Positions 12,582-21,443 of a stretch of DNA of 64,000 bases are shown piece after piece. A program made the translations under genes and the position numbers. The stretch's first letter is position 1; every line of letters begins with the position of its first letter. Origin of the DNA: Chloracidobacterium sp. Lineage in GTDB: Bacteria; Acidobacteriota; Blastocatellia; Chloracidobacteriales; Chloracidobacteriaceae. The notes under the pieces are model-generated. The model was not told where the DNA came from and made no database searches. It was given only the letters and a program-made list of their open reading frames with translations. The DNA lies in assembly GCA_025057975.1 (NCBI GenBank), contig JANWUV010000001.1, positions 1 to 64,000 of the forward strand, in the 5' to 3' direction.

Positions 12582-13343
12582 TATCAGGAAAGAGAGCGCC
12601 GCAGCCCCCGCGTGGCGGTCGGCGAGCGTTAGTGGCCCGCTGGCCTCCCGCCTGCAAGCGGGCGACAGCTGACAGGCAGCGCGGCGCATGCTGCGCGCAA
12701 GGCTGGGCCACGCGCCCTCTATTTACGCCTGAAGCCGTGCAGCGGACGACGCTACAGCCGGACCGCCGGAGAACGGCCCGGTTTTGCCACAGGCAGCCCC
12801 GTTACCGTATCCGTCGCCAAAACCAGCTTCCACAACGCCTGTTTCAAGAAGCGCGCCGGTTTCTTGGTGGTCGGGCGTATTCAACCGCCCTCGCCTGCCA
12901 CGGCAGGGTCTCTGCCGCCGCTACGAGGCAGTCTTGCCTGAAGCCCTGTGACCGCTTCTTGCCACCACGCCAGCAGGTTGACTCGCCACATTGCTTCAGA
13001 AAGCGCCCTAGAAGGTCATCTGCGCCATAGGGGAGTCGCTACAGTCTGTACCCGACCGGTTTCGATCAAAAAACCGCCTAATAGGATGCGCCGCGCACAA
13101 ATCGGAGAAAGATTTCCACTTGTGCAAGTCAAGCAAACGCCGGTAGTCCAAACCGGCTTGGCGCAGAACGGGTTCGGCAAGTGAGCGTGGGTGCGCTAAG
13201 TACGGTTTGTTTCGGCGCATACGCAGATACAGGCAATATTGTCGGTGTTGACATGGAGTTTTGGCTCGACCAAAACAACGTGCATAAGCCATAAACGCCT
13301 CCGTCGGCTCGTTTCGTATCGCAGCGGCGTCAGCAAAAACGCT
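12582..13343. other. Long noncoding gap with several short hairpins
   Basis: 762 nt between ilvE and the first sigma-54 activator, unusually long for this window. Reading frames inside are Arg/Pro-rich and not credible. Visible structure: CCCGC/GCGGG hairpin at 12647-12662; a cluster of complementary CCTGCC/GGCAG elements at 12894-12939 that can form alternative hairpins; and a TTGACA at 13248-13253 without a good -10 at 17 bp. It holds no tRNA that I can recognise. It may contain a small RNA, a decayed gene or the regulator's promoter. Confidence 0.5.
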
Positions 13344-14678
13344 ATGGCGGAAACGGTTTTGATTGTGGACGATGAACGTGGAATTCGGGAGTCGCTGCGC
13401 GGCGTACTCGAAGACGAAGGCTTTGTTGTGGAAAAAGCCGAAAGCGGTGATGCAGCCCTGCGCCGGTTGGCGACTACGTCGGTGGACTGCATCCTGCTCG
13501 ACATCTATATGCCGAACAGCCAACTCGACGGTATCGCAACGCTTGAAGAAATTCGCCGCCGTTACCCGCACATTCCTGTTGTCATGATTTCCGGTCACGG
13601 AACGATTGACACCGCTGTACGCGCCATCCGGCTAGGGGCAAGCGACTTCATTGAGAAACCACTTCACATTGAGCGCACAATCCAAGCGGTGCGCCACGCG
13701 ATTGAAACTCACCGCCCGGCGCTTAGCGCCGTCAGCGACAGCCTGATCGTCGGACAGAGCGCGCCGATGCGGGCGCTCCGGCAACAGATTGCGCTAACTG
13801 GGCCAACCGACGGGCGCGTTTTGATTTACGGCGAATCCGGGACCGGTAAGGAGCTCGTCGCTCTCGCCCTGCACGCCGCCTCCAAACGCGCCGACCGACC
13901 GTTTGTCGCCGTCAACTGCGCCGCCGTCCCAGAAGACCTGATTGAATCGGAGCTGTTCGGTCACGTCAAAGGCGCTTTTACCGGCGCCACTGAGTCCCGG
14001 CGCGGCAAGTTCGAGCAGGCCGACGGCGGTACGCTTTTCCTCGATGAGGTCGGCGATATGAGCCTACGGATGCAGGCTAAACTGCTGCGCGTTCTTGAGA
14101 CTGGTCTGATTGAACCGGTCGGCGGCCAGAGCGCACGCCATGTAGACGTGCGCGTGATCGCGGCCACCAACAAGCGACTTGACGAGGCTATTGAACGCGG
14201 GCAGTTCCGCGCCGACCTGTTTTATCGGCTCAATGTCGTTCCCTTTCAAGCTCCTCCGCTCCGGGAACACCTCGAAGACATTCCGGCGCTGGTCGAACAT
14301 TTCGTTCGGAACTTCAGTCGGCAATACGCGCGTCCGCCTATAACCCTGACTGAAGACGCTTATGACAAGTTGCGGCGGCATGACTGGCCCGGCAACGTAC
14401 GCGAGTTACGCAACCTCATCGAACGGCTGATTATTACGGAATCGGTTTCACCAGTAACAGCCGACCGGATTCCCTTAGACCCGACGCCGAATTCCATCTG
14501 GGCCAGCTTCCAGTTCGGCTCGCTGCGCGAAGGAAGCGAAGCCTTTGAGCGTGAACTGGTGCGCCGTAAACTCGCCGAGTGCAATGGCAATGTTGCTCAG
14601 GCCGCCGAGGCGCTGGGTATTGACCGGAGCTACCTGTATCGCCGCATTAAGGCGCTAGGGATTAATCTACGCGGCTGA
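13344..14678 (+). CDS. Sigma-54-dependent response regulator, NtrX/NtrC-like
   Basis: A 444-residue response regulator with three domains. The receiver (1-120) has acidic D9/D10, phospho-acceptor D53 in LLDIYMP, and [29 protein letters not shown], a stretch close to NtrX. The AAA+ domain has Walker [15 protein letters not shown] for contact with sigma-54, and [12 protein letters not shown]. The C-terminal Fis-type helix-turn-helix reads [23 protein letters not shown] 13344 is chosen because the receiver begins there; an upstream in-frame start at 13239 adds 35 unrelated residues. It activates sigma-54 promoters after phosphorylation by a kinase not found next to it. Another sigma-54 activator follows after 21 nt; rpoN itself is at 35322-36893. 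Confidence 0.92.
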
Positions 14679-14699
14679 TCCTACGCAACGCCGCCGCTT

Positions 14700-15674
14700 A
14701 TGACCACTTCCGAACTCTTCATTGGTGCGTCGGCTCCCATACAAACGCTCCTGAAGGATGCGGCGCGCATCGCGCCAACGGACGCCACTGTGGTCATTAC
14801 TGGTGAAAGCGGCGTCGGGAAGAGTTTGCTGGCCCGCTGGCTGCACGAACACAGCCGCCGCGCCGCTGGGCCATTCGTCGTCATTGACTGCGGTGCACTA
14901 CCGGAACCGCTACTCGAAGCCGAGTTGTTTGGGTACGAGCGAGGCGCGTTCACCGGCGCAACGGCGGCAAAAGCCGGGAGGTTTGAAGCCGCACAGCACG
15001 GGACGCTGGTCCTTGACGAAGTGGCGGCATTGTCGCCGACGGCGCAGGCGAAGCTGCTTCGGGTGATTGAAGAACGGCGCGTGATGCGGCTGGGTGGCGT
15101 CCGCCTGCTGACGCTCGATGTACGGTTTATCGCCGTGACGAACACCGATCTCGCCGCCGCTGTCGCGCGCCGAGCCTTTCGCGCCGACCTCTTTCACCGC
15201 CTGAACGTTGTTGCCTTGGAAGTGCCGCCGTTGCGGAACCGCCCAGCCGACATTCCACCGCTCGCCCGGCATTTCCTCAAGTTGGCGGCGCAGCGCAACC
15301 ATTTGCCGTCCCTCAAGCTCGAAGCGGAAACGCTGACGTTTCTTGAGCGGTATGACTTCCCCGGCAATGTTCGGGAACTGCGGCACGCCATCGAGCACGC
15401 GGCTCTAGCGACGCCCGACGGCTGCATTCGGCGCGAGCATTTGCCTTCGCGGATGACCTCGGCAACGGCTCTCATTCGACATGCCTCGCGCAAGCCAACG
15501 TTGGCCGAACTCGAAGCGGCCTACATCCGCGAAATTTTGCGTCACGTCGGCTGGCGCAAAGCCGAGGCCGCGCGCATCTTGGGCATCAGTCGCAAAAACC
15601 TGTACGAAAAGCTGCGTGCCTACGGAATTCCCTACCAACCCACCGATGGAGACGCCGCCGACGCCTCCGCTTGA
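14700..15674 (+). CDS. Receiver-less sigma-54 activator
   Basis: A 324-residue enhancer-binding protein made only of an AAA+ domain and a Fis-type helix-turn-helix, as in PspF. Walker A GESGVGKSLLARW, GAFTGA in YERGAFTGATAAKAG, LVLDEVAALSPTAQAKLLR, and the DNA-binding WRKAEAARILGISRKNLYEKL are clear. With no receiver or GAF domain, its activity must be set by expression level or a partner protein. It begins 21 nt after the NtrX-like gene, so the two probably form one operon and could hetero-oligomerise. Its paralog identity is modest, so this does not look like a recent duplication. Confidence 0.9.
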   Translation: MTTSELFIGASAPIQTLLKDAARIAPTDATVVITGESGVGKSLLARWLHEHSRRAAGPFVVIDCGALPEPLLEAELFGYERGAFTGATAAKAGRFEAAQHGTLVLDEVAALSPTAQAKLLRVIEERRVMRLGGVRLLTLDVRFIAVTNTDLAAAVARRAFRADLFHRLNVVALEVPPLRNRPADIPPLARHFLKLAAQRNHLPSLKLEAETLTFLERYDFPGNVRELRHAIEHAALATPDGCIRREHLPSRMTSATALIRHASRKPTLAELEAAYIREILRHVGWRKAEAARILGISRKNLYEKLRAYGIPYQPTDGDAADASA

Positions 15675-16423: not shown

Positions 16424-17776
16424 GTGTTTACACATTTTCCGTTCCGGTTGTACAACACGGCGCTGACGGTCAGCGCGCCGCTCTGGTTGGGCTATTACGG
16501 GCTACGCGCGCTCCGCCGAAGGAGGGATTGGCGTCACCTCCGCGAACGATTCGTCCCACAACTCTCCGCTGCGCCGACGCCAACTATCTGGTTTCATTGC
16601 GTCTCCGTTGGCGAAGTCCTTGCCGGACAGCCTTTGGCCCAGGCCCTGCGTGAACGCCTTCCAAGAGCGCATTTTGTGATCTCGACGACGACGGAAACCG
16701 GACAGGCGCGCGCCCGGGAACAACTGGACTGGATGGGGCGGCACTTTTACTTTCCGCTCGACCTGCCGTGGGTGACGGAACGAGCCCTCGCCGCGCTGAA
16801 ACCGGCGTTAGTCGTTATTCTAGAAACAGAAATCTGGCCCAACTTTTTACACGCCTGCGCCCAACGCGGTATCCCAGTCGTCCTCGCCAATGGACGACTT
16901 TCTGACCGTTCGTTCGTCCGCTACCGTTGTCTTGGATCAGCGATGGGCGATCTCTTGTGCCGCTTTACGCTGTGCCTCATGCAATCTGACGAAGATGCAG
17001 CGCGCATCATTGCACTTGGTGCGCCGCCTGCGCGCGTCATTACCACCGGCAACCTCAAATACGCGCCGCCGGACGCAACCGAGCAGCGGCGCCGCGACCG
17101 CATCGCCGCCGACCTTCAGCGGCAATTCAGCCTCGGTGACGGCCGTCCCTGCATCGTCGCCGGCAGCACAGTTGAAGGTGAAGAAGTCATCCTTGCTGAA
17201 GTCTTCGCCCAACTCCGCATGACGCCGGCTTTGAAGCCTTGTCGCCTGCTGCTTGCGCCAAGGCATCCTGAGCGCTTTGCCAGCGTTGGACGCGAACTTA
17301 GACGGTTCGGGTGGCGCATCGCCCGCCGTACGCAGCCGCGGTCGGACGATGCGCAGGCCGAAGTCATCCTTCTCGATACCATCGGCGAACTCGCCGCCGC
17401 TTACCGTTGGGCCGACGTGGCGTTTGTCGGCGGCAGCCTCGTCCCACGCGGCGGACACAACATTCTTGAACCGGCCGCCGCCGGACGGCCGGTGGTAACA
17501 GGGCCGTACACTGAGAATTTCCGCGCGATTATGGATCGCTTCTGCGCCGCCGATGCCGTATGGCGACTCGCTCCAGGTCCGGTGGATGCGTTGCGGCGTG
17601 ACCTTGCCGCAGCCTTGGAGACGTTGCTAACCAATCCGGCGCACGCCGCGGCGCTAGGTCGCCGGGCGCAGGCGACTTGGGCGCAGGCCGCCAGCGCGGT
17701 TGCGGCGACCCTCGCGGCGCTGGAAACCCATGTCTTTCCGACGTTGCCGGCGCTTGCAGCTATTCAAGGTGACTGA
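16424..17776 (+). CDS. waaA: 3-deoxy-D-manno-octulosonic acid (Kdo) transferase
   Basis: A 450-residue GT30 glycosyltransferase that transfers Kdo from CMP-Kdo to lipid A precursor at the inner membrane, showing the cell makes LPS. Features: N-terminal hydrophobic anchor (LYNTALTVSAPLWLGYYG), catalytic base E64 in HCVSVGEVLAGQPL, STTTETGQ, ETEIWPNFL and the nucleotide-binding GGSLVPRGGHNILEPAA. Start is GTG 16424. It follows EF-P by 60 nt. The 3' end overlaps the convergent winged-helix/YggX gene by 17 nt. Confidence 0.95.
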   Translation: MFTHFPFRLYNTALTVSAPLWLGYYGLRALRRRRDWRHLRERFVPQLSAAPTPTIWFHCVSVGEVLAGQPLAQALRERLPRAHFVISTTTETGQARAREQLDWMGRHFYFPLDLPWVTERALAALKPALVVILETEIWPNFLHACAQRGIPVVLANGRLSDRSFVRYRCLGSAMGDLLCRFTLCLMQSDEDAARIIALGAPPARVITTGNLKYAPPDATEQRRRDRIAADLQRQFSLGDGRPCIVAGSTVEGEEVILAEVFAQLRMTPALKPCRLLLAPRHPERFASVGRELRRFGWRIARRTQPRSDDAQAEVILLDTIGELAAAYRWADVAFVGGSLVPRGGHNILEPAAAGRPVVTGPYTENFRAIMDRFCAADAVWRLAPGPVDALRRDLAAALETLLTNPAHAAALGRRAQATWAQAASAVAATLAALETHVFPTLPALAAIQGD

Positions 17777-18218
17777 TCTGGCCCTGCAACGTCGTGTCAA
17801 TCATCATCGGCGGCGTTCCGTCGCCAAAGAAAAACGACTCCATTGCGCCAAACAGAAACTTTTGAGCCTGTGGATCAAGCGGATTCAAACCAAAGTGATT
17901 CATCAGGACGAGTTGCTGGGCCTGCCACTTCTTCCAGCACTCGGCGCAGGCGGTAGCGTACACCCTACGCCCAAGCTCATTGTTGAAGGGGACGCGCGAC
18001 ATCGGCGGCATCTCGTCCCGGCAAGCAACGGCGTAGGCATCACCTTCGCGTTTGACCAACCGCGCCTTCTCCAGCTCGCCAAGCGCCATTCTGACCGACT
18101 TTTCAGGATGACCGGTCTCGGCGACGAGCTGAGCCGCCGACAGCGCCCCTTTTTCCTTGAGCACTTGGACGACGACGCGCGGCGTCCCCTTCAAAGCTAC
18201 ACACAGGGTATCGAGCAT
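17760..18218 (-). CDS. Winged-helix domain fused to YggX-like iron-trafficking domain
   Basis: 152 residues. Residues 8-65 read as a winged helix-turn-helix (KGALSAAQLVAETGHPEKSV, then LGELEKARLVKREG). Residues 66-134 resemble YggX/Fe(2+)-trafficking protein: NELGRRVYATACAECWKKWQ aligns with the family's GELGKRIY...AW..W, then LMNHFGLNPLDPQAQKFL matches its LINE..LN..D...RKFL, ending in FFFG. Cysteines are C6, C66, C91 and C94; YggX normally has one N-terminal Cys. YggX alone is about 90 residues and protects Fe-S clusters. I know of no family standard for this fusion; a regulator sensing iron or oxidative stress is a guess. Overlaps the waaA 3' end, convergent. Confidence 0.75.
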   Translation of the reverse strand: MLDTLCVALKGTPRVVVQVLKEKGALSAAQLVAETGHPEKSVRMALGELEKARLVKREGDAYAVACRDEMPPMSRVPFNNELGRRVYATACAECWKKWQAQQLVLMNHFGLNPLDPQAQKFLFGAMESFFFGDGTPPMMIDTTLQGQISHLE

Positions 18219-18260: not shown

Positions 18261-19700
18261 TTACGGACTAGACGGCAAATCGTACAGACACGCCGCCTGA
18301 CGCAAGCCGGCCCACAACTCGCTTTCCACTTCCCACACCGCCTGTTGACTGACCCGACCGGTCATTCGTTCGACCCGGATGGCGGCGTTAAGCGCGGCGT
18401 CGGCCGCGTGCAAATCACTTGACCGGTAGAGCGCCTGCCCCAAATCCCTGAGCGCCTCGGCGAAGTCGGGACGCTGTTCGATGGCCCGCTCGAAAGCTTC
18501 GACGGCAAGGACGAGCTTGTTCTGGCGCATGAGGACTCGCCCCAGGCGATGCCAAGCTTCGGGATACACACCGTGGCTTTTTTCAATCGCTGTCCGGAAA
18601 GCTTGTTCGGCGACATAGGGAGGCTCGCATTGGGCAAGCGCCACCCCTAGCTCATAGTAGCCTAGCGCTGTGTCCCCGGCGGGCGTCGCCACAAAGCGCT
18701 GAAGCGTTTGGACGGCTTCCGGCAGACGCCCAAGTTTGATATAGGCGCGGCTCAGTTGGCGGTACAAACCTGGCAACGGCGTCACTGTCAACTGTTTAGA
18801 CAGGACTTCGACCGCTGCCTCCGCTTGCCCCATCGCCAGCAACACTTTGCTAAGATCAAGCGCGGCTTCGGGGTACTGTCCGCCGCGACTGGCGCGCGCT
18901 TCCGTCAGCGCCGCCCGTGCGGCTTGAAACTCACCCTGCATCGCCAGCGCATTGCCCAGACCCAACCAACTTTCACCGTCCGTCGGGCGCAACGTGACAG
19001 CGGCGCGAAACGCAGACGCAGCGGTTTCCGCGGCGCGCACGCGCAGAGCAGCCAAGCCCAAGTTGTGATGCGCCGCACCCTGTGTGTCGCCGGCGTCCAA
19101 TGCCCGCTGATACGCTGCTAGCGCCGCTGTCGGCTGATCGAGGCGGAACAGAGCGTTGCCCAAATTGCGATAGGCGACGCCAAGCCCCGGCTCAGCGTCT
19201 AACGCCGCTTGGTAGGCATCGCGCGCCGCTGCGTAGTTGCCGTGAACATAAAGGACGTTTCCCAGATTGAACCACGCCCGACCATACGGCGTCGGTGAGC
19301 AAGCAACAGCGCGGCGCAGCAACTGCAGCGGCTCGTCAGTTCGACTGGCGGCAAAAAACTTGCCTAGTTCAAACAGTCCAACACCCAAATTAAGCAGAAC
19401 ACGCGGGTGGTTGGGTGCCAACGTCTCCGCCGTCCGCCACATGCGGATGGCCTCGCGCAGTTCGCCCAACTCGCGCAGCACGGCGCCCAACCATTCGTAC
19501 GACGGCGTATGTTCAGCGTCCAGCTTGATCGCCTGCCGAAAAGCGGCTTTCGCCGCTTCATATTCGCCGTACTCCCAGAGTTGTTTGCCGCGCTGGAATA
19601 AGCTCTGTAACTGAACTTCCGGGCATTGCGTCGCAGCGCGCGCCGTTCGTTCAACTGTAGTCGCCACCGTTTGATCCGTCATAGCGAGGTGACGGTCCAT
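18261..19700 (-). CDS. Tetratricopeptide repeat protein
   Basis: A 479-residue protein built almost wholly of TPR units (about 12), for example YEAAKAAFRQAIKLDAEHTP, LREAIRMWRTAETLAPNHP and YAAARDAYQAALDAEPGLG. No signal peptide or catalytic domain, so it is probably a cytosolic scaffold. Start ATG 19700 is taken; an ATG at 19682 (MTDQTV) is equally possible. It reads toward the winged-helix/YggX gene with a 42-nt gap and may be cotranscribed with it. No specific partner can be named. Confidence 0.85.
   Translation of the reverse strand: MDRHLAMTDQTVATTVERTARAATQCPEVQLQSLFQRGKQLWEYGEYEAAKAAFRQAIKLDAEHTPSYEWLGAVLRELGELREAIRMWRTAETLAPNHPRVLLNLGVGLFELGKFFAASRTDEPLQLLRRAVACSPTPYGRAWFNLGNVLYVHGNYAAARDAYQAALDAEPGLGVAYRNLGNALFRLDQPTAALAAYQRALDAGDTQGAAHHNLGLAALRVRAAETAASAFRAAVTLRPTDGESWLGLGNALAMQGEFQAARAALTEARASRGGQYPEAALDLSKVLLAMGQAEAAVEVLSKQLTVTPLPGLYRQLSRAYIKLGRLPEAVQTLQRFVATPAGDTALGYYELGVALAQCEPPYVAEQAFRTAIEKSHGVYPEAWHRLGRVLMRQNKLVLAVEAFERAIEQRPDFAEALRDLGQALYRSSDLHAADAALNAAIRVERMTGRVSQQAVWEVESELWAGLRQAACLYDLPSSP

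Positions 19701-21443
<1,743 letters not shown>

Follow-up and report, generated by a model that had tools for sequence, protein, structure and literature searches.

Introduction

The molecular role of YggX, the family defined by Pfam Iron_traffic (PF04362), has so far been incompletely explained; its solved members include proteins from E. coli (1yhd, 1xs8), P. aeruginosa (1t07) and Burkholderia (2mzy). YggX has been identified as a treble clef, among those treble clefs whose solved members lack zinc (Kaur and Subramanian, PMC4999995). Cys-7 of Salmonella YggX is described as essential by Gralnick and Downs (2003) in their title, which is cited in PMC2989944, and by the text of PMC11078426.

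Here we describe a gene from Chloracidobacterium in which a YggX domain is preceded by a winged helix, located in a window comprising the first 64,000 nucleotides of contig JANWUV010000001.1. This combination is a real, conserved and taxonomically narrow domain fusion within a known family. A first-pass annotation, made from the DNA alone, had regarded the design as previously undescribed, and papers on PF04362 or on YggX together with a winged helix (a set containing few subscription papers) yielded no earlier description. Its view of YggX as a normally free domain is mostly right, although TPR-YggX fusions exist in Planctomycetota. The loss, in a conserved fusion, of a residue reported to be essential is unexpected.

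Results

The fusion gene and its two domains

The features discussed below are as follows.

17760..18218 (-): fusion gene, 152 aa, ATG start, stop codon at 17760-17762; kept in nine genomes of three genera
18024..18194 (-): winged-helix half, residues about 9-65 (AlphaFold2 secondary structure, fold matches, weak recurrent Pfam matches)
18066..18104 (-): presumed recognition helix, residues 39-51 (AlphaFold2 and orthologue comparison)
17814..18023 (-): YggX / Iron_traffic domain (treble clef), residues 66-135 (Pfam and solved-chain matches)
18201..18203 (-): C6, invariant in all fusion proteins, a possible replacement ligand (orthologue alignment)
18030..18032 (-): residue 63, where fusions have A or R; aligns with Cys-7 of Salmonella and E. 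coli, the first cysteine of the treble clef (domain alignment)
18021..18023 (-): C66, second treble-clef cysteine, retained (domain alignment)
17937..17948 (-): C91-x-x-C94, ancestral second CxxC (domain alignment)
18261..19700 (-): gene for a TPR-repeat protein, 479 aa, 42 bases upstream of the fusion gene and on the same strand
16424..17776 (+): waaA (Kdo transferase), convergent with the fusion gene and overlapping it by 17 bases

The open reading frame at 17760-18218 on the minus strand, its ATG start and its 152-residue product are as the first-pass annotation gave them, and so is the YggX domain that it assigned to residues 66-134. Iron_traffic matches residues 66-135 with E=1.9e-17 (63.2 bits; gathering cut-off 27), NCBIfam PRK05408 matches with E=2.2e-19 (69 bits, slightly under its cut-off of 74), and the solved YggX chains matched by sequence are 2mzy (3e-11), 1t07 (5e-8), and 1xs8 and 1yhd (4e-6). 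This is the only PF04362 protein in the Chloracidobacterium genome; the same search disposes of a second, free YggX paralogue.

The Pfam matches of the N-terminal half all lie under curated cut-offs (MarR_2, E=1.2e-4, 22.6 against 27; HTH_9, E=2.6e-4, 21.5 against 23.4; HTH_5, 12.8 against 22), and they recur, HTH_9 in all nine fusion orthologues and MarR_2 in seven of the nine. An AlphaFold2 model, built on a seven-row alignment (mean pLDDT 77.8, pTM 0.63), gives this half the elements of a complete winged helix (helices 11-23, 28-35 and 39-51, strands 55-58 and 61-64; pLDDT of the block about 81-94), so that the N-terminal structure is predicted to be helical, as the original proposal required. 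Superposition agrees, in that the archaeal DNA-binding winged helix 7bzh fits residues 9-67 at 1.5 A over 59 residues, and the MarR and MecI regulators are among the fold matches. Because the best VIA-align Z is only 8.2, these matches indicate a common fold and nothing further. The YggX half is modelled with helices at 81-89, 92-109 and 116-131; the top Foldseek match of the model is the YggX structure 2mzy (E=1.6e-3, probability 1.00), and 1t07 aligns with a target-normalised TM of 0.69 (2.0 A, 66 columns), as expected of the YggX fold. Residues 1-10, including C6, form a low-confidence region of the model.

Distribution and origin

All seven Chloracidobacterium genomes sampled carry the fusion, as do two other genera of the family (G007 and G009), and a single frame spans both domains in each of these nine orthologues. 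Occurrence in nine genomes, including three 2-contig assemblies, together with the purifying selection described below, rules out a chance or assembly join. A fourth genus of the family (G008; 90% complete, about 1090 contigs) gave no match. Outside the family, no full-length match to the fusion profile was found in 396 Acidobacteriota genomes, where the other matches listed are limited, or almost limited, to the YggX part. The first-pass annotation had also called for a search of other phyla, and none of the 246 Planctomycetota and 299 Pseudomonadota genomes sampled, nor any plasmid searched, contained a full-length match, with the proviso that this profile could miss YggX joined to an unrelated winged helix. 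No YggX match came from the sampled genomes of family f2, the other family of the order, and the nearest named loci to the fusion are Chloracidobacterium and Blastocatellia records.

In a maximum-likelihood tree of 99 YggX domains (a quick tree, based on few columns), the fusion sequences form one clade with support of 100, on a long stem of 0.9 changes per site, and the sister group consists of free-standing YggX of the same class, with support of 89. The simplest reading is one fusion event within the Chloracidobacterium family.

Within the genus, dN is about 0.02-0.10 and dS about 0.6-2 in both halves; as dS above 1 is near saturation, these values establish no more than a dN/dS well under 1. 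Purifying selection is strong on both halves. In comparisons across genera, the YggX half is better conserved than the winged helix, with 55 of 89 positions identical between the window and G007 (winged helix, 34 of 62), and 62 of 89 between the window and G009 (winged helix, 37 of 62).

Cysteines of the YggX half

On the evidence of alignment, the YggX family is split into two forms, one a four-cysteine treble clef and the other a one-cysteine, E. coli-like domain. The positions equivalent to 63, 66, 91 and 94 are all cysteine in 35 of 36 free YggX proteins of the same class (the 36th has three), in 14 of 39 from the other classes of the phylum and in five of eight from Planctomycetota; E. 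coli-like YggX has cysteine at position 63 (Cys-7) only, the E. coli sequence having been checked against 1yhd. Independently of cysteine number, residue 108 tracks lineage: it is histidine, in the motif N-H-[FY]-G, in all members of the class, fused or free, and the motif reads N-E in all others sampled.

The CxxC at C91/C94, which the first-pass annotation took to have been added within the domain, is instead ancestral, being one half of the CxxC...CxxC treble clef that free YggX of the class retains; the equivalents of C91 and C94 in those proteins rule out an insertion. The true cysteine change, as read from the alignment, is a loss of the first treble-clef ligand, at the position of Cys-7, together with the appearance of an invariant cysteine in the new half. 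Residue 63, which is cysteine in nearly all other YggX members, is A or R in every fusion sequence, leaving cysteine at three of the four treble-clef positions (66, 91 and 94) in place of two complete CxxC-type ligand pairs. C6 is invariant in all nine fusion proteins and lies immediately before the first helix of the winged-helix half, where it may replace the lost ligand. Since the Cys-7 equivalent is A or R, the fusion is best described as a sequence and fold relative of YggX whose YggX activity is only putative, and the function may have changed with the loss of that residue.

Gene neighborhood

The TPR gene adjoins the fusion gene directly upstream, on the same strand, in all nine fusion genomes of the three genera, and the two probably share one transcript. 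In G007 and G009 the upstream TPR gene is longer, the waaA and atpD neighbors are absent, and downstream there is a gene for YceG/MltG. Members of the TPR family, in open frames some 1200-1300 codons long, are also present in families of the class that lack YggX, and therefore the adjacency of the TPR gene to the fusion may be inherited rather than functional; no hidden YggX or winged helix was found beside the TPR gene in those families. Relatives of the TPR neighbor were observed at loci L148-L157, in members of families f2, f3, f5 and f8, all without a YggX match, and none was found at E<=1e-60 in the sampled YggX-bearing families f4, f6 and f7. YggX and the TPR relative are mutually exclusive across these families of the class, perhaps only as a matter of lineage history.

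In family f4, free yggX lies directly downstream of a gene for an AhpC/TSA (Bcp-like) peroxiredoxin, on the same strand (L016, 940-1431 on the plus strand; also L019, L041 and L042), an arrangement that would be in keeping with a role in oxidative stress. Elsewhere in the window, two adjacent genes at 13239-15674 on the plus strand (479 and 324 aa) have, by eye, the look of sigma-54-type activators; the second seems to lack a receiver domain and to begin with the AAA+ domain.

Discussion

We favor, with a probability of about 0.45, a metal-binding YggX relative of single origin whose winged helix docks it to DNA or a partner. A four-cysteine (treble-clef) YggX of the organism's own class would have been fused once to a winged helix in an ancestor of the Chloracidobacterium family, and the C-terminal half, by analogy with its family, would still limit iron-driven oxidative damage. 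C66, C91 and C94, perhaps with C6, may coordinate a single Zn or Fe ion where the two halves meet. Docking by the winged helix, either to DNA or to another protein (the neighboring TPR protein is a candidate), would place the iron-handling or antioxidant activity at that site; the protein would not be a classic operator-binding repressor. We prefer this reading because the fusion is the genome's only PF04362 copy, is sister to free YggX of its class and is under selection in both halves; because its YggX half is the more conserved, with three treble-clef cysteines kept and C6 invariant; and because the TPR gene is always adjacent, TPR-YggX proteins occur in Planctomycetota, yggX of family f4 lies beside AhpC/TSA and the treble clef is already known for YggX. 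Against it stand the absence of the residue reported to be essential in Salmonella YggX, the low confidence with which the region of C6 is modelled, and the occurrence of the TPR family in genomes without YggX.

The winged helix could instead make the protein a one-component transcription regulator, binding specific operators and using the cysteines of the YggX half to sense iron or an oxidant, in line with the DNA-binding iron or redox switch that the first-pass annotation suggested. The winged helix is complete, with MarR-, ArsR- and HTH_9-like matches and MarR and MecI among its fold matches, it is basic overall (pI about 8-9), and the cysteines of the protein are conserved, all of which suit a regulator. 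However, the recognition helix (residues 39-51) is not the basic, conserved helix of MarR- or ArsR-type proteins: its net charge is 0 to -2, its exposed residues differ between genera, and G47 of the window is replaced by P or D in the other genera, with proline in G009. The presumed DNA reader is also less conserved than the YggX half, and the genome already has three ordinary Fur-family genes for metal regulation. Upstream of the TPR gene there are short blocks conserved across the genus, one of them promoter-like (TTGCAA...AAGCTA), but no clear operator palindrome was seen by eye. Such a regulator appears somewhat unlikely, and sequence-specific regulation would be less favored than docking, on arguments that are weak.

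The intergenic region at 19701-19991, which separates the TPR gene from the divergently oriented atpD gene, contains blocks kept across the genus, for example GACGCTACCACA and a TTGCAATC...ACAAGCTAA-like pair, possibly representing two promoters.

Protein-binding winged helices are familiar, and this precedent, the neutral recognition helix, the constant same-strand adjacency of the TPR gene and the TPR-YggX fusions of another phylum would all fit a protein-interaction or dimerization module that makes no contact with nucleic acid, with YggX in a complex with the TPR protein. TPR repeats are common, however, the TPR family also occurs without YggX, and the winged-helix half is basic; we consider this reading unlikely. 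We think it distinctly unlikely that the fusion is a DNA-docked YggX with its metal site rebuilt across the two domains, in which C6 would stand in for the Cys-7 equivalent, and metal loss or oxidation would shift the winged helix and alter binding to DNA or to a partner. Finally, that the YggX half lost its original function along with the Cys-7 equivalent and is now only a metal-stabilized scaffold would suit the absence of that residue from every fusion sequence and the long stem of the clade, but it is improbable given that the remainder of the domain core persists and is strongly conserved, in a genome without another YggX to take over.

This lineage constitutes a natural experiment, in which a residue reported to be essential was discarded while the rest of the sole YggX remained under strong selection and became joined to a winged helix. 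Whether the fusion still protects cells bears directly on what Cys-7 does, and the presence of a winged helix on YggX suggests DNA, transcription or a TPR partner as possible sites of YggX action.

Comparison with known systems

The C-terminal half of the fusion is a clear member of the YggX family represented by the E. coli, P. aeruginosa and Burkholderia structures. Compared with E. coli YggX, the fusion adds an N-terminal winged helix and has A or R in place of Cys-7, and its C66, C91 and C94 correspond to L, S and A, respectively. With the free four-cysteine YggX proteins of its class (L002-L019 and others) it has in common the CxxC at 91/94, H108 and the IDT..GxI tail; unlike the fusion, these proteins are 91-97 aa long, lack a winged helix and have both CxxC pairs complete.

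The N-terminal half has the element order and fold of MarR-, TrmB- and HTH_9-like winged helices, from which it differs in a recognition helix that is not basic and in Pfam matches that all fall below curated cut-offs. In four Planctomycetota loci (L080, 1486-2070 on the minus strand, and L077, L081 and L085), a four-cysteine YggX lies at the C-terminus of TPR repeats, as seen by Pfam scan for L080. These TPR-YggX proteins resemble the Chloracidobacterium fusion in joining a four-cysteine-type YggX to an extra N-terminal domain, and differ from it in that TPR repeats make up the added domain, none of the four cysteines is lost and their YggX domains are placed elsewhere in the tree.
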